Of a DNA stretch of 64,000 nucleotides, positions 5,053 to 49,549 are shown piece by piece. Each line of letters opens with the position of its first letter. Within the stretch, counting starts at the first letter, position 1. This stretch comes from a virus. The stretch covers positions 1 through 64,000 of the IMG/VR virus record IMGVR_UViG_3300006802_000078; one strand, given 5' to 3'. Made by a program: the position numbers and the translations under genes. A model generated the notes under the pieces. It made no database searches, was not told where the DNA came from, and was given only the letters and a program-made list of their open reading frames with translations.

Positions 5053-6270
5053 TCAGGCAGACACGGCGAGGCGCCGGCTGCTGCGGGTGACGCCGGTGTA
5101 CCGGAGCGCACGGCACTCCAGGCTCCGGCGGGAAGCGTAGGTCTCCCAGTAGACGACCTCGGGGAACTGGGATCCCTGCGCACGGTGGACGCTGGCGGCG
5201 TAGGCGTAGCGCGCCTGTACCAGCGGGGGCAGCTTCGCCCCAGAGAGCCAACGCTCGATGAGGACTGTGGCATCGCGGCGGAGCGACTCCCCCCGGGCGA
5301 GGGACTTTGTGTAGACCGAGACCTCCTCGACGCGCCCATCCTCAAGCTCCAGGCGGCAGATCTGTAGGTCGCGGTGCCGCATCATCATGGGGGTGGCTTC
5401 CTCCACATCCACGACCCGAGCGAACTCGTTGCGGACGGCGCCGATGTCCTGCGCCTTCTCGCAGAAGAGGATCCGGTCGCCCGCCGCCAGCGGAGCGCCC
5501 CCGCGCCCCAGCTTCTCCCGCACCAGGTGGTTCACCCGGTCGATGTCCTCGTTGCGGTAGGTCAGCAGCACGATGTCGGCGCCAGCGGCGACCCGCTTCG
5601 CCAGCACCGCCTCGGGGGCGAAGCTGCCGGCGGGGAGGAGCTTCACGTCTGGGCCCTCCCAGACCCAGCGGGGAGCGCTCTGCCATGTCCAGCGCCGCCC
5701 CCCCTGGTCGATGGCGTCCGCCAGCGAGATGATAGGAGAGCCCGCCGCCTGGCGGTGAATCGTCTCCAGGCTCGCCGTGGGCTGGAACAGACAGGGGACG
5801 ATGCTCCCCTTGGGTGGGGGGAGCTGCCGCGTGTCGCCCACGAGCACCAGGCAGGAGCCTTCGGGCATGACCGACAGCAGGTCGTCGTAGACGCTCTGGT
5901 GCAGCATCGACGCCTCATCGACGAGGAACACCTCCCCCACCCCGCAGGGAGCGTGGCGGTTGCCGAAGCAGATGTGGGTGTCGCCCGTGGCCTTGTCCTC
6001 CTTCTCGAAGACGTGGCCGTAGAGGCAGGAGTGGACGGAAGCCACGGGCCTCCCGATGGCGGCGGACAGCACCTTGGCGGCGCGCCACGTGGGGGCGGCG
6101 ACAACGACGCGGCGCCCGGTCGCCTCGATGCGAGCGATCATCTCCTTCGTGATCGTCGTCTTGCCCGTGCCCGCCTTGCCGGTGAGCTGCGCCTCCTGCG
6201 CACCCCCCAGGATGGCGGACAGCATCGCGTCGAGCGCCGCCTGCTGGTCAGGGCTGAAGGTGATGGTCAC
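5053..6270 (-). CDS. RecD/Dda-like SF1 DNA helicase
   Basis: 405 residues. Walker A GKAGTGKTTITKEM sits at about residue 30, followed by the motif Ia-like VVVAAPTWRAAKVL. Motif II is VFLVDEASML near residue 115 and motif III is LVLVGDTRQLPPP. The C-terminal YAASVHRAQGSQF and YTGVTRSSRRL match motifs V and VI of SF1B RecD2/Dda helicases. The start is GTG, overlapping the TGA of the upstream gene (GTGA), so translation is probably coupled. A 5'-3' helicase next to SMC and polymerase genes fits replication-fork or recombination work. The family assignment is secure. Confidence 0.9.
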   Translation of the reverse strand: MTITFSPDQQAALDAMLSAILGGAQEAQLTGKAGTGKTTITKEMIARIEATGRRVVVAAPTWRAAKVLSAAIGRPVASVHSCLYGHVFEKEDKATGDTHICFGNRHAPCGVGEVFLVDEASMLHQSVYDDLLSVMPEGSCLVLVGDTRQLPPPKGSIVPCLFQPTASLETIHRQAAGSPIISLADAIDQGGRRWTWQSAPRWVWEGPDVKLLPAGSFAPEAVLAKRVAAGADIVLLTYRNEDIDRVNHLVREKLGRGGAPLAAGDRILFCEKAQDIGAVRNEFARVVDVEEATPMMMRHRDLQICRLELEDGRVEEVSVYTKSLARGESLRRDATVLIERWLSGAKLPPLVQARYAYAASVHRAQGSQFPEVVYWETYASRRSLECRALRYTGVTRSSRRLAVSA

Positions 6271-6981: not shown

Positions 6982-9900
6982 CTATGCTTCCTTCAGGTTG
7001 GTACCGACGCCCGCGCTGCTCGTGTAGGCCACGGGCTCTCCCTCGAAGACGACTTGCATGAGCTCCTCCACCCGAGCGCGGGCCCGCTCGGCGTCGGCGT
7101 CCCAGCGGAGGATCTTCTTCCCACCCGGCCCTGCCTCGTGCCACGCACGACCCCGCGTCTCGACCACGAGCTGGTCGTGGACCTGGAGCACCACGCCCGT
7201 GCCGGGTCCTGCGTGGCCTCGGTAGAACTCGGTGAGCAGCTGCTGCTCGGCGCACCAGGCGATGTGGGCTTCGTCTCGCAGCACCGGCCAGTTCACCACG
7301 GCGTTGAGCTTGCCGTCCTCGAGCGGACCGCTCCGCACCTTGGTGTAGCCGCTCTTCATCCAGCCGCCGTTGCGGCGGTACTCGGCGCAGAGCGCGTCCC
7401 ACCGCCACTGCCACTGGGGCTCGGCCCGCATCCACTTCTCGTGGTACTCGATGATGTCGTCGAGCTGGTAGCCCAGGTAGGGCAGTGAGCCGTCGTTGCG
7501 CTCGGTCGAGGTGATGACGCGCCAGATCGTCGCGGGCGCCGCGCCGTAGATGGCGGCGTAGCGGAAGATCTTCATGACGTCGCGCATCATGTCGGCGTCG
7601 CCCCCCTCCGGCTTCCGCTTCAGGGAGGGGGGAGCGTCCCCCCAACCGGTCGCGTCGAAGTAGGCGTCGCCGTAGACCGCCGCCGCCAGCGCCCCGTGAG
7701 GGTCGACGCCGTTGGCGAACGCCTCGCAGAGCACCGGGATCCCCCAGCGGTTGGCGATGATCCGCAGGTGGAGCTGGTCGATGTCGGGGCCGATGAAGAC
7801 GTGCGGCTCCCCCTTGGGCCCCTTGCCAGGGACGAAGATGGTCTTCAGCGCCGCCTGGCCCTTTTTCTTGCCGATGACCATCAGCGATGGGCCGTTCGAG
7901 GTGAGGCGCCAGACCGCGGTCGAGTGGGAGCCGAAGGTCGATCGAACTCTACCGTCGTGGTCCCACACGAGGCCCCCCTCGGAGCGTAGCCCGAGGGGAA
8001 GCAAGGTTGTTCCAAGCATCTTGCCCATCTTTCTACGATAGAGTCGAAGATGCTGAAGATAGAAAAGCTGGGCGCGGCTGAGCGAGCTGCCCGCCATGTG
8101 GGCCAGGATGACGGCGTCGCCCGTCCCGGGCAGGCCCGTGCCGGTGAGGAACTCCTTCTCGCTCATCCCCTTGGGGACGCCGAGCTGCCAGTCCTCGTAG
8201 AGGAGCCGCCGCATCTGGTCGAACGACGCCGGGTTGAAGTCGCTCGTCCGCTTGAGCTCGTCGACCGCAGCCGCCCACTCGTCGGAGTCGACGTCGCGGG
8301 GGTTCAGCCCGAACATCTCGCAGACGTCGTCCTCCCCGAAGGTACCCAGCGCGAAGCCCCCCTCGGAGTCCTGCAGCTGGATCCGCTCAGCCCCCGCCTC
8401 GGTAGCGAGGCGCTTCATCTGGTAGAGGTGGTCCGCGGCCTCGATCCTGAGCTGGGCGATCTGCCGCCTGCGCTCCACTTGGTCGACCACGATGCCGATC
8501 TCGGACATGTCTCGGCAGAAGGTGCGACGGGAGTGGTCGATGCCCTGTTGGGTCAGCTCTGGATGCGACGCCGCGCTGCCGTAGCCGACGCTCGGGCGGT
8601 AGCGGTAGTCGACCACATCGTAGTAGCCGTTCTCCCTGGCTTCGCGACGCAGGCTCGGCAGGATCCGGAGGTTCACGATGCAGTCGGTCTCGTTGTACTC
8701 CTGCCGCTCCTCGGCGCTGACCTTGTCGGAGGTGGCCGCTTCCTCCCCCTTGTCGTTGATGTCCCAGCGATCGACGTCTGTGCGGAGCCTGCCCTGGGGC
8801 TTCAGCCCCTTCGGGCTGTCGGGCATGGCCGCGCGGGCCAGGTCGAGTGAGTCCTCCGTGCACGCGTCGATGAGGGTGATGCCGTAACGGTGCTTCATCA
8901 CCAGGTAGTCGAAGCTGCGGACGTTGTGCCCCACGACACGGGGGAGGGGCCTGCCGGCGAATACCCCGACCGAGTGGAGCCAGTCGTCGAACAGGCGCAG
9001 GATCCGCCACCAGTCGCGCGCCGAGTACCACTCGCGGGTGACGCCAACGCTCCGCGCCGGCCACGCGGCGTCGAGGGGGTTGTCGACCACGATGCCCCCC
9101 TCGTCCAGGTCGGGGGCGGCGATGGCGAAGCACCGCACGTCGGTGACGAAGGTGACGATGCCCGTCGTCTCGATGTCGAAGCTGTACTCTGGGTAGGGGG
9201 TGCCTTCGGCATGACCCGGGCACGAGGCGAGCAGCCAGTCGCGGAACTGCTCGACGGTCGGCCGGCGCAGCCTGTCCCCGTAGGTCCAGCGGAGCTTGTT
9301 GTTGAAGTAGCGGAGCGCCTTCTCCAGGTCGTGCTTGAGCCAGGGGCGCGCCGCCGGCGAGCGCATGGTGAAGGCGGGGTGGAACGACGCCAGCGCTGGC
9401 TTCGGCTCGCTGCTGGCGCCCTCGGGTAGCAGCCCCGCAGCCTTCATCGTGTCGCCGCGGTGCTTTGCGATGCCACCCCGCACCCCGGTGACGGCGCGCA
9501 GGGCGGAGGCACCCAGCGGTACGATCCCCCGGTACGGCTCGGCGGTCGCGAGCAGCGCTGGGTGGCAGCACTCGACCGGATCGGGCAGCTCCATCATCAC
9601 GGCGCGGTCGGCCGCCGCCTTCGTCATGTAGGCCCCGCTCGCGCGGAGCTCGTTGCTCCGCGCCTTGCGCATCCGGGACAGCGTGGCTGTCATGCGAGAC
9701 CAGGCGCCTGTCGGATCCCCCGGGATCTTGCAGAGGAGCACGTTCGTCAGCGAGAACATGCTTCGGGTGAGCCCAGCGGCAGCGAGCACCCGGGCCAGCT
9801 CAAGGCCGGAGGCCCCCGCCAGGGGGTAGCCGCGCTGCACCTCCTTCCACGCAGGGCTCTCACCGACGAGCAGGTACTCGGCTCCGTCGTTGATCTCGGG

Positions 9901-10059
9901 GAGCACGGGTACGAGCGGCTCTCCAGAGGAGATGCGCAGCCTCCCCTTCGGACCGATGGGGCACACATCGCACCGCGCCCCCGCCGCCATCGCATCCTGG
10001 CAGGTAGCAGCGGCGACGTCGTCGGGTAGGTTGCCTGCTGCGGGGCGCCGCCGCCGCAT
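6982..10059 (-). CDS. polA-like: Family-A DNA polymerase with N-terminal UDG-like domain
   Basis: 1025 residues in three parts. Residues 1 to about 230 resemble family-4/5 uracil-DNA glycosylases: Cys-rich start (C-x9-CDVC), LLVGESPAWKE, a GASGLELARVL segment, TNVLLCKIPGD, and the closing ASFHPAF. A DEDDy 3'-5' exonuclease follows: SFDIETTG near 293, GHNVRSFDYLVMKH, and YNETDCIVNLRIL. The polymerase domain has motif A GPDIDQLHLRIIAN near 755, motif B RDVMKIFRYAAIYG near 830, and motif C LQVHDQLVVE near 960. All expected polymerase and exonuclease catalytic acids are visible. A UDG-like module fused to a phage polymerase is known from some phages (SPO1-type, from memory). Whether the module is catalytic or only structural cannot be told here. 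This is the probable replicative polymerase. Confidence 0.93.
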   Translation of the reverse strand: MRRRRPAAGNLPDDVAAATCQDAMAAGARCDVCPIGPKGRLRISSGEPLVPVLPEINDGAEYLLVGESPAWKEVQRGYPLAGASGLELARVLAAAGLTRSMFSLTNVLLCKIPGDPTGAWSRMTATLSRMRKARSNELRASGAYMTKAAADRAVMMELPDPVECCHPALLATAEPYRGIVPLGASALRAVTGVRGGIAKHRGDTMKAAGLLPEGASSEPKPALASFHPAFTMRSPAARPWLKHDLEKALRYFNNKLRWTYGDRLRRPTVEQFRDWLLASCPGHAEGTPYPEYSFDIETTGIVTFVTDVRCFAIAAPDLDEGGIVVDNPLDAAWPARSVGVTREWYSARDWWRILRLFDDWLHSVGVFAGRPLPRVVGHNVRSFDYLVMKHRYGITLIDACTEDSLDLARAAMPDSPKGLKPQGRLRTDVDRWDINDKGEEAATSDKVSAEERQEYNETDCIVNLRILPSLRREARENGYYDVVDYRYRPSVGYGSAASHPELTQQGIDHSRRTFCRDMSEIGIVVDQVERRRQIAQLRIEAADHLYQMKRLATEAGAERIQLQDSEGGFALGTFGEDDVCEMFGLNPRDVDSDEWAAAVDELKRTSDFNPASFDQMRRLLYEDWQLGVPKGMSEKEFLTGTGLPGTGDAVILAHMAGSSLSRAQLFYLQHLRLYRRKMGKMLGTTLLPLGLRSEGGLVWDHDGRVRSTFGSHSTAVWRLTSNGPSLMVIGKKKGQAALKTIFVPGKGPKGEPHVFIGPDIDQLHLRIIANRWGIPVLCEAFANGVDPHGALAAAVYGDAYFDATGWGDAPPSLKRKPEGGDADMMRDVMKIFRYAAIYGAAPATIWRVITSTERNDGSLPYLGYQLDDIIEYHEKWMRAEPQWQWRWDALCAEYRRNGGWMKSGYTKVRSGPLEDGKLNAVVNWPVLRDEAHIAWCAEQQLLTEFYRGHAGPGTGVVLQVHDQLVVETRGRAWHEAGPGGKKILRWDADAERARARVEELMQVVFEGEPVAYTSSAGVGTNLKEA

Positions 10060-10061
10060 GG

Positions 10062-10532
10062 TCAGCGCCCGACGGAGACGACTGCCTCCGCGAAGCCAGA
10101 CTCCCGCGCCAGGTCTGACGCCTCCGCGGCCGCCAGCAGGAAGAGCAGCAGCATGCCCGCCTCCGCGGGGGCGAACTGCACCGCGAGCCGGCCTGCTCCA
10201 TCGGGGCCCGCCAGCTCAAGCCGCGCCTCGAAGGAGTCGAGCACCTTCTTGATCCCGTAGGCAACGTTGCGGAACGCCTCGGCGCCCTCTGCCGACATGG
10301 CCATCTGCGCCAGCCCACTCGGGCCCTCCCGCGAGGCGCCCTCGATCTGCGCTGCTGGCATGAAGACGGTGAGCCCCTGCATGACGACGATGTCAGTGGC
10401 CGCTCCTTGCAAGCGGTGGGCGAAGCGGTTCCAGAACTCCCTCAGCTCGAGGTCTCGCACAGTAGCGTGGTCGCCCACAGTGTCGCTGGCGGCGGCAGCG
10501 GCAGCAGCGGCGGCAGCTTCGTGTCGATCCAT
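10062..10532 (-). CDS. Hypothetical protein with poly-Ala N-terminus, upstream of DNA polymerase
   Basis: 156 residues from an ATG preceded by GGAGGAGACG; a longer in-frame start 21 nt upstream lacks this signal. The N-terminus has an alanine run (about 11 Ala) followed by a helical domain. A hydrophobic stretch near the C-terminus (AEAGMLLLFLLAAAEA) could be a buried helix. Its 5' leader folds into the large three-way-junction structure described separately, so its expression may be controlled by RNA structure. Function unknown. Confidence 0.75.
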   Translation of the reverse strand: MDRHEAAAAAAAAAASDTVGDHATVRDLELREFWNRFAHRLQGAATDIVVMQGLTVFMPAAQIEGASREGPSGLAQMAMSAEGAEAFRNVAYGIKKVLDSFEARLELAGPDGAGRLAVQFAPAEAGMLLLFLLAAAEASDLARESGFAEAVVSVGR

Positions 10533-10555
10533 CGTCTCCTCCGTCGGCTGCAAAA

Positions 10556-10632
10556 GGGAGCCCCGCCCCGGGAGCAGCCATGCCCGGGACGAGGCGGGTG
10601 TGTCAGGCGACGCCCGCCAGAGCGGGGCTCCC
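10556..10632 (-). ncRNA. Compact three-way-junction RNA structure in the 5' leader of the 10.53 kb gene
   Basis: An 11-bp perfect outer helix (GGGAGCCCCGC at 10556-10566 with its exact reverse complement at 10622-10632) encloses two hairpins: CCCGGG/CCCGGG at 10567-10588 and an 8-bp stem at 10593-10618. Only 0, 4 and 3 unpaired bases join them. On the transcribed minus strand it is followed by TTTT and then the strong ribosome binding site of the next gene. It could be an attenuator, an mRNA-processing or stability element, or a small regulatory RNA. The fold is read by eye; function unknown. Confidence 0.5.
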
Positions 10633-10637
10633 GGAGA

Positions 10638-10665
10638 GAGGCGCAGCCAGTTGGAGCTGCGCCTC
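10638..10665. terminator. 10-bp stem hairpin just after the 10.68-11.47 kb gene
   Basis: GAGGCGCAGC at 10638-10647 pairs perfectly with 10656-10665 around an 8-nt loop, starting about 18 nt downstream of the preceding minus-strand stop codon. There is no clear T tract. It may be a terminator or mRNA 3' stabiliser, and sits beside the three-way junction. Confidence 0.45.
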
Positions 10666-10682
10666 CCCCCTCTGCGATGGGG

Positions 10683-11468
10683 CTACCCGTCCCACTCGCT
10701 GAGCGCGTCGCCGCTGCTGCCGCTGCCAGCGCCATCGGTGCCGCCAGCGTTGCCCCCACTGCCGCCGGTGCCCCCGCTGCCCCCACCGCTCCCGCCCTCG
10801 TCGGCGTTCTCCCAGGGGCGCTTGCGAGTGTCCTCGACGGGCTGCCCGATCATGTCGCGGGCGACCACGGCGTAGGTCTGGGGGAAGTGCTTGTTGTAGG
10901 GCTTCCCGTTCCGCCCGTTGGCGGCGCACCAGGCCTGGGACGGCCCGTTCTCCTGGAAGCCGACGTAGCGGACGCAGACGGTCTTGCCCACGAGCTTGTC
11001 CAGGTCGAACGCGCTCTCGTCGGCGGCCAGGATCTCGGCGGCCTTGGCGTCGAACTCCTTCTCGGAGTCGATGTTGTAGGCGCTCATCAGCAGCCGCTTC
11101 CAGAAGCCCAGCGCGCGCGACATCACATTGCCGAGCCGCCTCTTCTCGTCCTCGGAGAGCGCGTCCCGCTGCTGCTTCGTGTCGATGACCTTGCTGATCT
11201 CCGCGGGGGCGGCGGCCCAGCCGTACTCGATCTGCCCGCTGGCGTTGAAGGGCCAGGGGTTGTTGACGAAGCTCTCGTAGCCGGAGTTGGCCACGTCCAC
11301 GACCAGGTTGGCCTGGGGGCAGCCGAGGATGCGATCGTTCATCGAGGGGAGGCCGTCGCGATCGGCGCTGACGATGACGGCCAGGTGGTGACCGGTCTCG
11401 GGGGCGCGGCTCCCGGGGAGCTTGGCCTTGCCGAGGAGTGCGAGGAGGAAGTCAGTCTTGCTGCTCAT
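10683..11468 (-). CDS. Candidate single-stranded DNA-binding-type protein
   Basis: 261 residues. The body is soluble with aromatic residues. The C-terminal 40 residues are a Gly/Ser linker (GGSGGGSGGTGGSGG) ending in the acidic, tryptophan-containing tip ALSEWDG. A flexible Gly-rich tail with an acidic tip is typical of SSB proteins, and the gene lies just downstream of a Sak4-like recombinase gene, a common Sak4-SSB pairing in phages. I cannot recognise an OB-fold with certainty, so SSB is an inference from tail and context. Confidence 0.55.
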   Translation of the reverse strand: MSSKTDFLLALLGKAKLPGSRAPETGHHLAVIVSADRDGLPSMNDRILGCPQANLVVDVANSGYESFVNNPWPFNASGQIEYGWAAAPAEISKVIDTKQQRDALSEDEKRRLGNVMSRALGFWKRLLMSAYNIDSEKEFDAKAAEILAADESAFDLDKLVGKTVCVRYVGFQENGPSQAWCAANGRNGKPYNKHFPQTYAVVARDMIGQPVEDTRKRPWENADEGGSGGGSGGTGGSGGNAGGTDGAGSGSSGDALSEWDG

Positions 11469-11517
11469 GGTGTATCTCTCGTCCTGTCGTCGCCTGCGCC
11501 GAGGCTATTGGGTAGAA

Positions 11518-11570
11518 CGGGCAGGGGGCACCCCTCGGCGGCGGCGACAAGATGTCGCGCCCCCTGCCCG
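11518..11570. terminator. 12-bp GC-rich inverted repeat enclosing a hairpin
   Basis: CGGGCAGGGGGC at 11518-11529 is the exact reverse complement of 11559-11570. Inside it GCGACA/TGTCGC forms a second stem with a 3-nt loop. It begins within 15 nt of the stop of the Sak4-like gene (minus strand) and is followed by only a short TTCT, so it is a plausible intrinsic terminator or mRNA-end structure. Its layout resembles the 10.6 kb structure. Confidence 0.5.
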
Positions 11571-11578
11571 GTAGAAAC

Positions 11579-12673
11579 TCAAGCGATGATGTCTTCGTCG
11601 CCGAAGTCGGCCGCGCCGCCGCTGCCGCCCCCGCCGAAGCCGAGCACGCCACCCATGCTGAAGACGTCCCGCTCCTGCGCGGTGCGGAACTGGGCGCGGG
11701 CGAAGCCGTCCTGCACAGCCCACCGACAGTGCAGGTCCTTCGGGTGGCGCGGCAGCAGCGGCACGGCGCGGCTGGCCCCCAGGGTGCCGTGCTGCTGGAA
11801 CACGGTGATGACCGCCTCCTGCACATCGGGCGAGCCCCTCATGCCTGCCTTCACCAGCGTGTCGCTGATGTATTGGGCGGCGTCGTCCTGCCACTCCATG
11901 CCCTTGGGGCGGGGGAGCAGCTGGCCCTGCATGAAGGCGCTGGCGTTGATGTGCTCCCGGGGGTTGAAAGGCTGCCCGTCATAGCCCGACTGGAAGCGGT
12001 CGCCGGCGATGTAGTTGGTGTTGCTGATGCTGCTCACACCAGCGACGCGGGCGTCGGGCCAGATCTCCAGCATGTTGGCGTCCTTGATGCCGTACATGAT
12101 GAGGTCACACGCCGCAACGGCGTCGTCGCTCCGGCTGCGGGAGCCGACGTCGACCGCATACGGGTCAAGCAGCTGCCCTCGCTTGTTCCGGCGCTCCTCC
12201 AGCAGGTGCCAGGTGAAGCCGACGGGGACCTGCAGGGCGCGCATCTCCTCGAAGAACCGCCGCACGCGGAGCTTGTGGTCGGTCCAGCCGGGGTTGGCCC
12301 CGTTGCCATCCCAGCTCGCCTTCGCCCGGTCGAGCAGGCGGTTGGCCGTTGCGTTCGCGCGGAAGGTGGCGTCGTCGATGATGATGCCCCGCCGGCGGAG
12401 CTCATCGAGGCCGATCTTGCCCAGCACCTTTTCGATCGCCTCCGGGAAGTCCTCGAGGAAGCGCACGGGCAGCGGGTAGATCGAGTAGCAGCCCTTGGGG
12501 GGGAGCCCGAGGGACCCGACAGCGATGACCTCGATACTCGATCGGTCGCCGAAGCAGATGGCCTCGGGGAAGAGGCGGAGCAGGCCGCTCGTCTTGAGGG
12601 TCTTGGGGTGGCCCACCAGCGACACCATGGGAGCGGTGAGGCTGAGGCCTGCGGGGTCTGGCGTGGAGGACAT
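11579..12673 (-). CDS. Sak4-like (RecA-fold) recombination ATPase
   Basis: 364 residues. The N-terminal P-loop is GHPKTLKTSGLL (about residues 17-28), where the usual GK is LK. A Walker B-like GIIIDDATF lies near residue 95, and PVGFTWHLLEERRNKRGQ resembles the sensor region of phage Sak4/AAA_24 ATPases. The C-terminus is a Gly-rich linker (GFGGGGSGGAADFG) with acidic tip DEDIIA, unusual for Sak4 and SSB-like. The start at 12673 is chosen for AAAGGAGCCACG directly upstream. It has its own GTTGC-dyad promoter and probably anneals strands together with the adjacent SSB candidate. Confidence 0.65.
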   Translation of the reverse strand: MSSTPDPAGLSLTAPMVSLVGHPKTLKTSGLLRLFPEAICFGDRSSIEVIAVGSLGLPPKGCYSIYPLPVRFLEDFPEAIEKVLGKIGLDELRRRGIIIDDATFRANATANRLLDRAKASWDGNGANPGWTDHKLRVRRFFEEMRALQVPVGFTWHLLEERRNKRGQLLDPYAVDVGSRSRSDDAVAACDLIMYGIKDANMLEIWPDARVAGVSSISNTNYIAGDRFQSGYDGQPFNPREHINASAFMQGQLLPRPKGMEWQDDAAQYISDTLVKAGMRGSPDVQEAVITVFQQHGTLGASRAVPLLPRHPKDLHCRWAVQDGFARAQFRTAQERDVFSMGGVLGFGGGGSGGAADFGDEDIIA

Positions 12674-12694
12674 CGTGGCTCCTTTCACTCAGTG

Positions 12695-12734: not shown

Positions 12735-14000
12735 CTACCAGTCGGCCAGCGGGTCGTCAGCCGTGCCTTCTCCGATCGACGAAGACTTCGCTGCCGCTGC
12801 CGTCGTAGCAGCGGGACCCCCAGAGCAGGCGTGGTGGTAGCGGCACATGCCGTAGCGGCCGAAGCACTCCTCGGTACCCGAGGCCGGGGCATCCCACCAC
12901 GTGACGGCGCCGCGGTCCACCAGGCTGTCCCACGTGGCGATGCTCCGCTCCCACCACTGCAGTGCGATTGCGAGCCTCCCGTCAGAGAACGGCTGGGGGG
13001 GAAGCTCCACGTAGGTGGACTTGAAGGGGGGCTTCGTCTGCACGACGAGGCAGTGCACCCCGTCGTACTCGACATCGGCCGAAGCGGCGCTGCGCATCTT
13101 CTCCGCCGCGATGAGCTGGGGCTCCAGCACGCGGAAGGCGCGGAACCCGACGATGCCCCCGTAGCTGAGCTGCGCGCCGCCGGCCCCCTTGATGAGCCCC
13201 TTGTGGTCGATGCTGCGGCGCTGGTAGCCGAACTGTGCGAGCAGGTCTCGCCGGCGAGTGATGCAGACGACGTGACCCCCGACGACGAGGGGCGTGATCA
13301 GCAGTGGCTTGCCTTCCGCGTCGAGCAGCAGCGACTCGAACCTGCCGTCGCTGCGGCGGGGGATGGGGGAGCCCGCGTCGCTCCACCGCAGGATGCTCGC
13401 CGGGTCGCAGGCCCAGACGAACATGCACTGCACCTCGGCGTCCCCCCGCTTGCGAGAAGCCCGGGTGCCGACGTCAGCGACCACGGGGGCGTGGGCTCCC
13501 AGCGCGGGGGCGAGCCGCCTCGCGTCCCACGCGACGTAGCCGACGATGCCGATGATCTCCCGCTCCACCTCCAGGATCTGCGCCCGCTTCAGCGCAACAC
13601 CTGGGGGGCTCCGCTCGAAGCGGTCAAGCACGGAGTGGACCAGGGAGACGAACTGCTCCCCCTTGCCCTCGGCCTCCTCGGTCCAAGCCGTGACCGCGTC
13701 GTGGGGCAGCAGCAGCGACGACGCCAGCATCGGGGTGACCTCGACGTCGTACATCACCTTGTCACTGTCCAGATCGTGGAGCTGACCGACGATGGGGGTC
13801 TGCCCCGCGGCGACCGCCTGGTGCAGGCACCAGTGGGCAGCACCGGCGTGCACCATGCTCCCTCTGACGAGCCCGTCATCGCCCCCTTGAGGAGTGACCC
13901 CCAGCCGCTCCTGGGCGCCGAAGCGGAACAGGCAGCGAGCAGCCGGTTCGATGCGAGAGCCGCCGCGGCGGCTCCGCCCGGCGAAGGCGGCGAGCCTCAT
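12735..14000 (-). CDS. PD-(D/E)XK nuclease, Cas4/AddB-like with probable Fe-S cluster
   Basis: 421 residues. A GSMVHAGAAHWCLHQ motif near residue 47 matches the conserved His of RecB/Cas4 nucleases. RRRDLLAQF followed by RRSIDHKG near residue 262 supplies the D...DxK catalytic core. Four cysteines, one near the N-terminus (ARCLF) and three near residues 370-387 (EECFGRYGMCRYHHAC), match the Fe-S cluster pattern of Cas4/AddB. The start is an ATG with GGGTGGGGC upstream. It lies between the Sak4-like ATPase and the Xre regulator, so it is likely the exonuclease of the recombination module. Confidence 0.75.
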   Translation of the reverse strand: MRLAAFAGRSRRGGSRIEPAARCLFRFGAQERLGVTPQGGDDGLVRGSMVHAGAAHWCLHQAVAAGQTPIVGQLHDLDSDKVMYDVEVTPMLASSLLLPHDAVTAWTEEAEGKGEQFVSLVHSVLDRFERSPPGVALKRAQILEVEREIIGIVGYVAWDARRLAPALGAHAPVVADVGTRASRKRGDAEVQCMFVWACDPASILRWSDAGSPIPRRSDGRFESLLLDAEGKPLLITPLVVGGHVVCITRRRDLLAQFGYQRRSIDHKGLIKGAGGAQLSYGGIVGFRAFRVLEPQLIAAEKMRSAASADVEYDGVHCLVVQTKPPFKSTYVELPPQPFSDGRLAIALQWWERSIATWDSLVDRGAVTWWDAPASGTEECFGRYGMCRYHHACSGGPAATTAAAAKSSSIGEGTADDPLADW

Positions 14001-14385: not shown

Positions 14386-16779
14386 TCACAGCCACAACCC
14401 CTTGGAAGCCGCGGCCAGTGCAGCAGCGGCGAGCTGGTCACTGCCACGCGAAGCGATGAGCTGCTGGTCCAGGTCTCCGATCTCGCCGGAGCTGAAGATC
14501 CGCATCATGTAGTCGAACTCCTTGCTGAGGGCGCGGGCGATCTTGGTTTCCACCCCTCCGCGCACCAGGGGGATCCAGACCCGGCTGGGCTTCTCCATGC
14601 CGGGGCGGCGGAAGCGACCGAGGAACTGCAGGATCAGGAACGGGCGCCAGTCGAGCATTGTGAGGATGCCGAGGGAGGCGAACTGCATCCCGTTGAGGCC
14701 AACGCCGAGGACGCCCAGCGTGCCGACGAGGATCGTCGGCTGCCCCGTCTGGGCCCGGGAGCGGAACCAGCCGTCGGTCACCTGGTTGCGCTCGATGGCG
14801 GAAGCGGCGTCGTCTCCCTCTGCGAGCAGCGCGCGGAGACCGCAGCGGCCGCGGAGTATCGGGTCCTTGTCGATGAGCTTCGCGAGGCGCTCGGTCCACT
14901 CCTTCGCCTCGGCGATGCGCGCCGTCGCGATGACCACCGCGCCGCCGTCTCGGACCTCGTCGATGGCGCGACTCAGCACGAGGGAGCGCTTCATGCACGC
15001 GGCGCTGATGATCCCCACCTCGTCGGCGGAGTCGATGCGCGCCTGCTCGCTGCCACCATCGTCGACGCCACGACGCTTCGCCATGATCGACGAGAGCGAC
15101 GGGGGCTTGTCGAGGTCTCGCTCGTCGTGCCAGGTGACGCTGACCGTCAGCGGCGGCAGGTCCCCGTGGGACTCCTCGTAGGGCACGTCGTGCAGCAGGT
15201 GGTGCACCCGCTCTCGGAGCTCCGCGGTGCGGCTCTCCCCGTCCTCTCGCACGCCGTAGCCTCTGGGATCCTGCTCTGCATCGCAGTAGGCCCAGCGAAA
15301 GCTGGCCTTGTAGCTACCAAAGCCGTGTGGGTCCACCCGATGCAGAGGCTGGAAGATCTTCTTCGGCTTGCCCTTCGTCAGCACCGTGGCGCTGAGTCCG
15401 AAGTGGTGCTGGATGGTCTCCCACAGCGCGAGGTTCTCGGTGGCCGCGGCCTGGATGAGCTTCCCTCCCTTGGTCCGCTTCGACTCGAAGCCCATCCCCC
15501 CACCCTTGAGCGGGACGGCCTCGGTCGTCACCGGGTCCGCGTCGTCGTGGATCTCGTCCTCGATCAGCACGGCCGGCGACTGCAGCCCGACGAGGTCGTA
15601 GTAGTCGGCGAGGGTCTCCCTCCCGACGATGATGCAGGGCCTGCCCTTGCGACGCTGGGCCTCGGCCCGCCACCAGGTGAGACGCATCCGCTGGGCTGCG
15701 GCGCTGCAGCCGGTCGCGACCACGGGCCACGAGGCGTAGCCTTCGCGAGCAGCAGCGGCAGCGGCGCGACCGTCATGCACTGCCCAGTCGAGCTTCGCTC
15801 CCCGGGTCCACGCCAGCGCCTCCATCAGCTCTGGCGTCTCGCTGTAGTGCGACTCGAAGGCAGCAACGACCTCGCCTGCGGGGGGGCTGGCGCGGAACAG
15901 GGCGCGGAGCCGCGCGTCCTCCCCCTTCGGGGCACCGTCACCCAAGATGCGGTCAGCGATGCCAGGCTGCCCCTGCGCTCCCCGATGCCCGATGCCGAGC
16001 CACGCCCAGTGCTTGACGAACCCGCCCTCCGGCAGGTCCGGCGACGAGGTCCACGCCCAGGGCACGTCTCCGCCAGCGAGGGCGATTTGCTCCGTCAGGT
16101 CCAGGTCCCGCGGCCCCTGCTTGCTCGGGGCCTCGAGCAGGATCATGCTCCAGTCCGGGGCGAAGCGGGGGATCTCCGCCCACCAGATCCCCCGCAGCCC
16201 GCCGCGACAGACCACGACGACGGGGCCGTCGTCCGTCGTGCTGACGAGCTGCGCGGCGATGATGGCGGCGCCCGTCTTGCCAGCTCCTGCCTTGCCGATG
16301 GTGACCGCCCCTACCTGGAGCGCCGCAGCCCGCATGGCCACCCCGGCGAACTCCTCCTGGAAACGGCGCAGCTTCGGGGTGCGAGGCGACAGGCGCCCGT
16401 CCACGCGGGCATGGCGGACCTCCTCTCGGCCCAGCTCGAGCAGCTGGGGGCGATGGTTCTCGATCTTGCCGTAGAACCACTTCGGGATCTCCGGGGGCAG
16501 ATCGCTGTGGGCGCCGCCGTTTCCCATCTTCCGCGCCGAGGAGACGATGGGTGGCAACATGCTCCTCGCGTCGCGGAGGGCTGCGGCCGCGTGCCACGGC
16601 GCCTCCAGGAAGATGCGGCTACCGGTCGCGCCCTTGTTCACCCGCCGGGCGTAGCCGCTGCCCCCGTCGGAGGCGTAGACCCGCGCGCCGGGGACCTCCT
16701 GCTCAATGGCGCCGGCGCGCTCCACTGAGCATTGGGCGAAGTCCAGAACGACGATCGGACCACGGTAGCGCAGGTTCAT
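14386..16779 (-). CDS. SF2 (DEAH/SNF2-like) helicase
   Basis: 797 residues. Motif I IGKAGAGKTGAAI lies near residue 162, preceded by a Q-motif-like LRRFQEEFAG. Motif II LIEDEIHDD is near 405 and motif III GLSATVLT near 460. In the second RecA lobe ILVGTLGVLGVGLNGMQFA and QFLGRFRRPGMEKP (near 718) match motifs V and VI. The start is the ATG overlapping the TGA of the upstream gene (ATGA). A large insertion separates motifs I and II. It may be a replication-initiation or recombination helicase; subfamily uncertain. Confidence 0.85.
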   Translation of the reverse strand: MNLRYRGPIVVLDFAQCSVERAGAIEQEVPGARVYASDGGSGYARRVNKGATGSRIFLEAPWHAAAALRDARSMLPPIVSSARKMGNGGAHSDLPPEIPKWFYGKIENHRPQLLELGREEVRHARVDGRLSPRTPKLRRFQEEFAGVAMRAAALQVGAVTIGKAGAGKTGAAIIAAQLVSTTDDGPVVVVCRGGLRGIWWAEIPRFAPDWSMILLEAPSKQGPRDLDLTEQIALAGGDVPWAWTSSPDLPEGGFVKHWAWLGIGHRGAQGQPGIADRILGDGAPKGEDARLRALFRASPPAGEVVAAFESHYSETPELMEALAWTRGAKLDWAVHDGRAAAAAAREGYASWPVVATGCSAAAQRMRLTWWRAEAQRRKGRPCIIVGRETLADYYDLVGLQSPAVLIEDEIHDDADPVTTEAVPLKGGGMGFESKRTKGGKLIQAAATENLALWETIQHHFGLSATVLTKGKPKKIFQPLHRVDPHGFGSYKASFRWAYCDAEQDPRGYGVREDGESRTAELRERVHHLLHDVPYEESHGDLPPLTVSVTWHDERDLDKPPSLSSIMAKRRGVDDGGSEQARIDSADEVGIISAACMKRSLVLSRAIDEVRDGGAVVIATARIAEAKEWTERLAKLIDKDPILRGRCGLRALLAEGDDAASAIERNQVTDGWFRSRAQTGQPTILVGTLGVLGVGLNGMQFASLGILTMLDWRPFLILQFLGRFRRPGMEKPSRVWIPLVRGGVETKIARALSKEFDYMMRIFSSGEIGDLDQQLIASRGSDQLAAAALAAASKGLWL

Positions 16780-17027
16780 GGCCTCGTCTCCCTCAGCCAC
16801 GCAGAGAGGCGCAGCACCAGGCGGTGGATCACGTCGCGCGCCCCTGGGTCGTCGGGCTCGATGCCGTAGATCTCGAAGCGCGCCCCCACGTCAGCCCCGG
16901 CAAGGACGGGGGCTCCGTCCACTACGATGCTGAAGATGGCTGGCTCTTGCCCCAGCTGCTCCGGCTCCGGCTCGCTCGGAGCCTGGGCTACGCGGTACGC
17001 CGCGAGGTCGATGATGACGCCGTCCAT
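16776..17027 (-). CDS. Small acidic hypothetical protein
   Basis: 83 residues starting MDGVIIDLAAYRVAQ with GGAGGGTTGA before the ATG. It is acidic in the middle (SEPEPEQLGQEP) and ends in a basic helix. It is translationally coupled to the SF2 helicase by ATGA, which suggests a helicase partner, but no family is recognised. Confidence 0.8.
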   Translation of the reverse strand: MDGVIIDLAAYRVAQAPSEPEPEQLGQEPAIFSIVVDGAPVLAGADVGARFEIYGIEPDDPGARDVIHRLVLRLSAWLRETRP

Positions 17028-47748: not shown

Positions 47749-47858
47749 TACGCACCCCTCCTGGTTGCACTTTCGCTCTATCTGTTGACCCTACGCGCGG
47801 GCACACCCCTTCGATGGGCTGGCGCGTAGTCGGAGCCGAAAGCAAAGACATAAGCATA

Positions 47859-47887
47859 GGGCCAGGGCAGCTTAGCTGCCCTGGCCC
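47859..47887. terminator. Strong 12-14 bp perfect hairpin
   Basis: GGGCCAGGGCAGCT and its exact reverse complement are separated by one base (effective loop CTTAG). It lies about 110 nt upstream of the 47.2-47.7 kb gene on the minus strand. There is only a weak T run (ATTCGGGTTT) on the plus side. Likely intrinsic terminator or the end of a structured RNA. Confidence 0.55.
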
Positions 47888-48913
47888 ATTCGGGTTTGGC
47901 GAGCCCAGCAACGGCGCGAGGGCGCCGATACCAGCTTGACCGTGGGTTATCCCCGCGGCCCCTGTCATCGCCCGCTAGGGCTCTGGTTCGAAGCTGCAAT
48001 ATCGACCAATGGGCTCCCCGTATCGTTTCCGGATCATGGCCCATTGTTCCCTCGTGGGTGCGCCGTTGCGGGGCCCACCTACACTGTCGGCTTCGGGATA
48101 GCCGACGATAGCGACCGATCGCCGTTGTCAATGGCGACGCGCTATCTGTTTATGTGTGTGAATACCGTTCAAACGACCGCCGCCGGTATCCTACCCGGTA
48201 CGCTACGCCGTTTCGTCGCTTCACCCTACTGTATGTGAGGCGGTATTGGCGTCTATCCGTCGAGACGCGCTACCCACCGCCGATCCTTTGCTACCCGCGC
48301 CACGATCCCGCTTCCTGCCCTCTGGTTCCTTTCACCGGGAGCGCCGGGGCCGCGGGCTACTGCCACCATGGGGGCCGCCTACGCTTGTGAAGGGGGCGCC
48401 CATGGCGCGGGGTAGCTGCTACCGCCGTCGCTGAGGGAGGGGGGGTCGTGGGGGGTGTCAAAGGGCGCAAGCCGACTACCTGTCGCCGACCCTCGGGGGC
48501 TACCTCCGGGGCGACGGATCCCGCTATCGAGCGGCCGAGTGGACCCTTGGGTGATGCCATAGGGCGCGCACGTCGAGACCCGGATCCCCACTGGTGTCCC
48601 GGGCGACAGCTACAGAGGACGGAGGGAGGGCTTACCGGGTAGTCGCGCACGGGGCGGAAAGTGACGCGTCGTCGCTTGCCGTGGCGTTACTGCCTTCCTC
48701 CTCCCGTGCGCCGACATAGGGGCCGAAGCCCTTGCTGCGGGTGGGGGGCGGATCAGATCACCAGACAGGGGACACCGTCCGCTATGCCGCGGAGGAGGCG
48801 CCTGTCTGTACGGGTAGGGGCTGAAAAAGACCGAAGGGGGCCGAGCGGGGGTTAGCCGTCCGCCCTCTGAGGAGGACCAGGGAGTCCCCTGGTCCTGCAC
48901 AGAGGGCAGCGGG
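47888..48913. ncRNA. Gene-free, densely structured region (candidate large ncRNA)
   Basis: No frame with a good start is found on either strand. Inverted repeats include CAATGGGC/GCCCATTG (48007-48014, 48039-48046), GTCGGC/GCCGAC near 48090, a 10-nt long-range match CTACCCGGTA (48190-48199) with TACCGGGTAG (48633-48642), CCGCT-ATCG-AGCGG near 48520, CAGACAGG/CCTGTCTG (48762-48769, 48801-48808) with an inner hairpin, and a nested terminal hairpin at 48862-48907. The strand of any transcript is not known. Confidence 0.4.
48862..48907. terminator. Nested two-stem hairpin after the 48.9 kb gene
   Basis: Inner stem GGACCAGGG/CCCTGGTCC (48874-48882, 48887-48895) with a 4-nt loop sits inside GCCCTCTG/CAGAGGGC (48862-48869, 48900-48907). 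It begins 7 nt beyond the stop of the minus-strand gene, so it is a good intrinsic terminator candidate despite no T tract. Confidence 0.6.
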
Positions 48914-49549
48914 CTACCAACCGCCGACCTTGCGGGAGGCCGCCTTGCGCCGCGCGCCCGGGACAGGGATCGAAGCGTTCCGACCGCGGAGGTGACTGTC
49001 CATCGCGGACAGCGCCTCCCCGTGGGAGCGGTTGCTGCCGTTGACGGCGACGGCGGCCGCGATCGCGTGGGTGATCGCCTCCTGAGCTTCCTGGTAGCTG
49101 GGCGCCGCGGTGATCAGGCGGAGGATTGCGGCCTTGACGGCGGTACGCTCCGCGCCGACCGTGGAACCATCGAAGTAGGCGATCGCGCTCTTGCCTTCAT
49201 CGGGGAGGTAGACCAGGAACGCAGGATCGGCGGGGAGCGCGGAGCGGGCCTCGTCCTTCCCCAGCTTGGCGCCGACGCGGTAGCGGCCGATCATGCTGGC
49301 GACGGCGGGATCGGCGGGATCGGCGGAGGGGGCCACGGTGTCCAGGGTGGCCCGGAGGTTGGCGATCGTGTCGTCACGATCGGCGATCGTCGCCAGGAGG
49401 GCGGCGATCGTGGCGTCGCGGTCGGCGATCGTCGCCAGGAGGGAGACGGCGTCGGTGTTGGTGTCGGTGTCGGCAGGGGCCGGCGCCACGTCGACGACGA
49501 CGGGGGCGGAGGGGGCGGAAGCGGCGGTGGTGCTGGTCTTGCGGGACAT
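48914..49549 (-). CDS. Protein with tandem heptad repeats, single-gene minus-strand unit
   Basis: 211 residues from an ATG after AGGATGACCCG. The N-terminus is Ser/Ala/Pro-rich; then LLATIADRDATIAALLATIA and a repeat of the same 14-residue unit form a coiled coil, with an exact 22-nt DNA repeat beneath. The middle holds FLVYLPDEGKSAIAYFDGST, and the C-terminus is basic and Arg/Gly-rich (GARRKAASRKVGGW), likely nucleic-acid binding. Its place in the control region, with a terminator behind, suggests a regulatory or origin-binding role. Confidence 0.75.
   Translation of the reverse strand: MSRKTSTTAASAPSAPVVVDVAPAPADTDTNTDAVSLLATIADRDATIAALLATIADRDDTIANLRATLDTVAPSADPADPAVASMIGRYRVGAKLGKDEARSALPADPAFLVYLPDEGKSAIAYFDGSTVGAERTAVKAAILRLITAAPSYQEAQEAITHAIAAAVAVNGSNRSHGEALSAMDSHLRGRNASIPVPGARRKAASRKVGGW
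49380..49443. repeat. 22-nt direct repeat, 42-nt period, in the coiled-coil gene
   Basis: The same 22 bases (starting TCGGCGATCGTCGCCAGGAG) occur at 49380 and 49422. Each copy contains the dyad GGCGATCGTCGCC. The period equals two heptads of the protein. Confidence 0.8.

Follow-up and report, generated by a model that had tools for sequence, protein, structure and literature searches.

The window analyzed here, the whole stretch of 64,000 nucleotides, comprises bases 1-64000 of a 91,625-base IMG/VR virus record from an uncultured phage (G+C content, 69%). Its minus strand carries a replication gene block with a helicase-like gene (14386-16800), a PD-(D/E)XK-type nuclease (12735-14000; weak match, E of 0.004, with a nuclease Cys motif match at E of 8e-4), an AAA_24-like ATPase (11579-12688; weak match, E of 0.07), an ORF for an SSB-like protein of 261 amino acids (aa) assigned by position and C-terminal composition (10683-11468), a 156-aa gene of no assigned family (10062-10532, ATG at 10532), and a family A DNA polymerase with an N-terminal uracil-DNA-glycosylase (UDG)-superfamily domain (6982-10059). 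The same UDG-polymerase A architecture was found in the polymerase of Virus Rctr197k (KX853510), and the fusion is common to Rctr197k and a family of uncultured phages. The feature under study (10533-10682, minus strand) is exactly the 150-nt gap between the stop codon of ORF 11468-10683 and the ATG at 10532, and the sequence GGAGGAG at 10536-10542 (minus strand) is the ribosome binding site of the 156-aa gene.

The 261-aa protein is probably a single-strand-DNA-binding (SSB-like) protein, as judged from its position and composition. Its gene lies behind those for the nuclease and the Sak4-type ATPase and ahead of the UDG-polymerase A gene, which is the position of DUF669-type SSBs, and the protein occupies the same slot as the SSB/DUF669-type proteins of relatives; DUF669 proteins adjoining sak4 are SSBs (PMC5928155). 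The C-terminal tail is Gly rich and acidic (...DALSEWDG). No Pfam or PHROG match was obtained for the 261-aa protein, profile comparison with a DUF669-type SSB gave no link (hhalign probability, 0.9%), and its single-sequence AlphaFold model was poor. The ATPase was not linked by pairwise BLAST.

Several other features of the record were observed. The gap ahead of the SSB-like gene (11469-11578, minus strand), a control gap in the statistics below, is also structured (z of -2.2): an 11-bp perfect helix, GGGCAGGGGGC/GCCCCCTGCCC, encloses a GCGACA-TCT-TGTCGC hairpin, and GTTCT comes next; on the other strand, the gap has an overlapping weak Rfam match to Methylosinus-1 (26.8 bits versus a cut-off of 145). 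About 1.1 kb without called genes (47749-48913) separates leftward and rightward gene blocks and is rich in long hairpins, among them one of 14 perfect bp at 47859-47887 and one with 38-nt arms at 48845-48924; this region is possibly a transcription switch or a packaging/origin region. A 4448-aa gene (L002/L003; positions 75279-88622 of the record, plus strand) encodes a large polyvalent protein with an LPD23 domain. N4-type hairpin promoters used by a virion RNA polymerase were rejected for the gap, as this giant protein showed no RNA polymerase domain, only the large polyvalent protein domain.

Predicted fold of the 150-nt gap

Thermodynamic prediction on this G+C-rich RNA gave a fold of -93.3 kcal/mol for the transcribed (minus) strand of the gap (z of -4.4), with 0 of 200 shuffles as good, and one of -91.2 kcal/mol for the plus strand (z of -3.7). 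Among all 150-nt segments of the 91.6-kb record, the gap ranked first in G+C-adjusted stability on both strands. An earlier note on this DNA had called the fold unlikely by chance, and these values bear that out.

Hairpin I (10633-10670, minus strand) starts 12 nt past the SSB-like stop codon and is predicted at -31.8 kcal/mol on the transcribed strand versus -23.4 kcal/mol on the other. The earlier note had described it as a 10-bp hairpin ahead of an outer helix; the hairpin is present, but as an uninterrupted helix of 16 bp with three G-U pairs and a 6-nt loop. Element II (77 nt, 10556-10632, minus strand) abuts hairpin I without a spacer. Its basal helix of 11 perfect bp (10632-10622/10566-10556), the outer helix described previously, was recovered with a pairing probability of about 1.0, and the dominant rod fold lengthens it to 16 contiguous bp (10632-10617/10571-10556). 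The compact three-way junction that had been proposed was also predicted but came out as the optimum only for the non-transcribed strand (-56.0 kcal/mol); on the transcribed strand, the rod (-52.6 kcal/mol) makes up approximately 87% of the predicted ensemble and the three-way junction (-51.1 kcal/mol) approximately 13%. The inner hairpins of this alternative are hairpin A (10593-10618, minus strand), with 6 bp (GGCGGG/CCCGCC) and then a C-A mismatch (probability, 0.13), and hairpin B (10567-10588, minus strand), with CCCGGG/CCCGGG (probability, about 0.12).

A U-tract, TTTT (10552-10555, minus strand), lies directly at the base of element II, 128 to 131 nt past the SSB-like stop, and is followed in order by GCAGCCGAC, the ribosome binding site, and the ATG; both TTTT and the next ribosome binding site had been claimed behind the helix on the transcribed strand, and both are there. 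The run is short, with only four U before GCAG. TTTT occurs 20 times in the record (both strands), and the copy in the gap is the only one in the 91.6 kb, on either strand, directly behind a helix of at least 9 bp. When one strand was shuffled, the helix before a TTTT reached at most 9 to 12 bp, versus 16 bp in the gap. The GGCTGC of the hairpin B loop region (10579-10574, minus strand) is complementary to GCAGCC (10551-10546, minus strand) right after TTTT, as noticed by eye, and may form a pseudoknot or an alternative pairing.

The gap element is present in a single copy in its own record, and no DNA match to it was found in phages or plasmids. Within the 64-kb window, no Rfam family scored above its gathering score, the weak matches being far below, and no tRNA or tmRNA was detected. 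Since no Rfam family matches, the idea of a processed small RNA gained no support in the form of a known small RNA or riboswitch.

Gaps behind the SSB gene in other phages

Searches with the 261-aa protein, the primase, or the polymerase alone found no relative, and a search with the terminase gave a single match, a near-identical contig not reaching the gap. That contig (L004, 58,968 bases), also from IMG/VR but from another assembly, is 99.99% identical to this phage over 22 kb. No alignable homologue or close relative covering the gap was found, and about 20 distinct distant contigs were retrieved only through alignments that included Rctr197k. Several distant phages have the module order nuclease, Sak4-type ATPase, SSB-like gene, (small ORF), and UDG plus DNA polymerase A. 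SSB/DUF669 models match the SSB-like proteins of L020, L010, and L012, and an annotated Sak4 lies directly ahead of the SSB-slot gene in vir526 and Microbacterium phage Hendrix.

About half of the hairpins behind the SSB gene, that of the gap studied here included, are followed by a U-rich tail, which argues for intrinsic termination. Rctr197k has a 14-bp hairpin followed by GACGC-TTTTTT (T6 five nt on), L015 a 15-bp hairpin followed by CGTCTTTT, L019 an 11-bp hairpin followed by TTCTTTC, and Serratia phage Opt-155, whose SSB was identified by position only, a classic terminator (GGGCTCTGCC/GGCAGGGCC plus TTTTTT; z of -5.2). Other cases have no U-tract and thus leave room for mRNA stabilization or RNase processing. 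No clear U-tract follows the helices of L008 (14 bp) and L012 (18 bp), the hairpin of vir526 (about 10 bp; z of -2.3), or the structure in L010 and L011, where an outer helix encloses two hairpins in a predicted three-way junction. Hairpins were also found in L013 (7 to 8 bp), L021/L024/L025 (7 bp), and Hendrix (about 14 bp; z of -4.0). The post-SSB hairpins of different lineages have no alignable sequence or loop motif in common. As a separate observation, the SSB-polymerase gap of L012 contains a tRNA-like sequence (5878-5964) with a T-arm (GGTTCGAATCC); its best match, to tRNA-Sec, scored 21 bits, below the cut-off, and ARAGORN made no call.

Post-SSB gaps of at least 40 nt are usually the most structured gaps of their loci. 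With gene calls from a simple home-made caller and 0 to 5 control gaps per locus, the post-SSB gaps of 12 loci had a median z of -1.97 compared to -0.12 for 31 other same-strand gaps (Mann-Whitney P of 4e-5, with rows not all independent), and a rank test with one row per lineage gave P(sum of ranks) = 2.8e-4. L007 has a post-SSB gap of 11 nt and no hairpin; in L020, Gordonia phage Survivors, and MW202455, the gap is absent or at most 17 nt long. The element is therefore dispensable for the module.

The gene that follows the hairpin varies. It is an endonuclease gene in Hendrix, a gene other than the polymerase in vir526, and a small unrelated ORF in L008 and L019, and in Opt-155 the polymerase gene is upstream, not behind the hairpin. 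The earlier note had taken the gap as the leader of the gene before the polymerase. The comparison speaks against that assignment, since a strong hairpin lies behind the SSB gene in several phages even where a different gene comes next (Hendrix and Opt-155 among them). Because the SSB gene in front, and not the gene behind, is the common factor, the hairpins may well act at the 3' end of the SSB mRNA, and the simplest reading of the sequences is that the hairpins belong to the 3' end of the SSB-like gene rather than to a polymerase leader.

Two further comparisons bear on the pairing itself. L010 and L011, with polymerases 89% identical, are the sole closely related pair, and it was here, in other phages, that the compensatory changes to which the earlier note had looked in homologous gaps were found. 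Of 13 compared pairs, 3 had double changes that kept the pair and 0 were broken, with the changes in the outer and 3' inner helices; with two sequences, this suggests conserved pairing but does not prove it. G-U pairs favor the transcribed strand in hairpin I (3 versus 0), in L008, L013, L015, and L019, and in one of two hairpins of L005, and this bias points to RNA rather than DNA; in L010/L011 they favor the opposite strand.

Proposed transcript ends and alternative readings

In our judgment, the gap is probably a tandem 3'-end element of the intrinsic-terminator type, likely leaky, that would yield SSB mRNA in excess of polymerase mRNA. Since distant phages have a strong hairpin in this position despite unrelated sequences, the element most likely acts as a (partial) transcription stop that would separate the expression of the two genes. 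As in intrinsic terminators, element II is a stable G+C-rich hairpin (16-bp basal helix, -52.6 kcal/mol), and the gap hairpins follow a stop codon on the coding strand. Against a terminator stand the U-tract of only four, the strong hairpins without a clear U-tract in L008, L010, L011, L012, and vir526, and the 77 nt of element II, which exceed typical terminator hairpins. In favor of one is a precedent from T4, where about 30% of transcripts end at a weak intraoperon terminator with a short U-tract (PMC2988022). The sigma-70 consensus gave no promoter near the gap; a leaky stop is likelier than a full one because the polymerase genes follow without a promoter evident under that consensus.

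The gap would then be the structured 3' end of the SSB-like transcript, with two stacked G+C-rich hairpins, the second followed by UUUU. Some transcripts would be released here as RNA polymerase passes out of the SSB-like gene, with a highly stable hairpin as their 3' cap, and the remaining polymerases would read through into the 156-aa gene and the UDG-DNA polymerase gene, so that SSB-like mRNA would exceed polymerase mRNA. We infer all three parts of this scheme, namely, that termination may occur at the gap, that it would be partial, and that it would serve dosage. The earlier proposal of an attenuator controlling the polymerase operon survives in this form, since an attenuator or terminator fits best and operon control is reasonable, although not through a leader of the gene before the polymerase.

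The same hairpins could instead form a site of mRNA processing or stability. Cleavage of the long near-perfect duplex, by host RNase III for instance, or its resistance to 3'-5' exonucleases would then set a stable SSB-like message apart from that of the polymerase, with no termination of transcription. We consider this unlikely. Such a site would fit the helices of L008 and L012, which are 14 to 18 bp long and lack a clear U-tract, as well as the 16 bp of hairpin I, also without a U-tract, and in T4 the mRNA of gene 32 (SSB) contains an RNase E site close to the stop codon that is kept in five T4-like phages (PMC3014915); TTTT exactly at a helix base is rare in the genome, however, and U-rich tails occupy the same slot in four other phages. 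It is most improbable that the palindromes act as DNA, as a replication origin, cruciform, or recombination site. Both strands fold strongly, but there is no GC-skew turn, iteron, or A+T-rich tract nearby, G-U pairs are biased to the transcribed strand in most lineages, and the position relative to the SSB stop codon is the same in other phages with unrelated sequence. An origin at the gap was rejected for the same absence of a skew turn and iterons.

A regulated form of the signal is also conceivable. The rod and the three-way junction would be alternatives in a protein-binding operator or a regulated attenuator, and binding of the SSB-like protein, of the polymerase, or of the 156-aa protein would alter either termination or how accessible the downstream ribosome binding site is. 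The two folds lie within 1.5 kcal/mol of each other, L010 and L011 have a predicted three-way junction with pair-keeping changes, the hairpin B loop GGCTGC could pair with the GCAGCC just after TTTT, and in T4 the DNA polymerase gp43 and the SSB gp32 bind operators located in the mRNAs that encode them (PMC3014915). We nevertheless hold this reading to be very unlikely, given that the lineages have in common no sequence or loop motif, as a specific protein site would need, that the downstream ribosome binding site is outside the stable helices, and that the T4 operators sit upstream of the gene they control. A bolder version, in which the Sak4/SSB modules of many unrelated phages keep a position-specific, sequence-free RNA element behind the SSB gene as a dedicated switch that sets the SSB-to-polymerase ratio and may sense SSB (regulated attenuation through the alternative rod and three-way-junction folds), and not as a plain terminator, appears quite unlikely.

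Under the terminator reading, the signal is of an ordinary kind at an unusually well-kept address. If that reading is true, a strong 3' hairpin has been invented again and again by phages at the end of the SSB gene in their recombination-replication module, which would be a simple route to abundant SSB and little polymerase from a single operon. Genomes of uncultured phages could then be interpreted with a testable rule, and there would be reason for caution, as a striking intergenic fold ahead of a gene may belong to the preceding gene.

Comparison with known systems

In phage HK620, as in the window, a Sak4-type ATPase is followed by an SSB-like protein, and the gap hairpin lies behind the SSB position; the paper on these Sak4-SSB (DUF669) modules describes the proteins, and the word "terminator" is absent from it (PMC5928155). 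The autoregulatory hairpin of T4 gp43 also lies upstream of a phage polymerase gene (PMC3014915), whereas the gap element has one gene between, hugs the preceding stop codon, and leaves the ribosome binding site uncovered. RNase E processes T4 gene 32 mRNA at +831, so that here too an SSB gene ends in a signal kept among related phages (PMC3014915); in T4 this is cleavage near the stop codon, whereas in the gap it is a long hairpin pair with a U-tract. The T4 mobE/nrdA-nrdB weak terminator (PMC2988022) resembles the gap element in its G+C-rich stem, its short U-tract, and its place between cotranscribed genes. The gap differs in having two tandem hairpins with far longer stems of 16 bp, in lying behind an SSB-like gene, and in that termination there is predicted; the role would be the same in both, limiting read-through and setting protein ratios.
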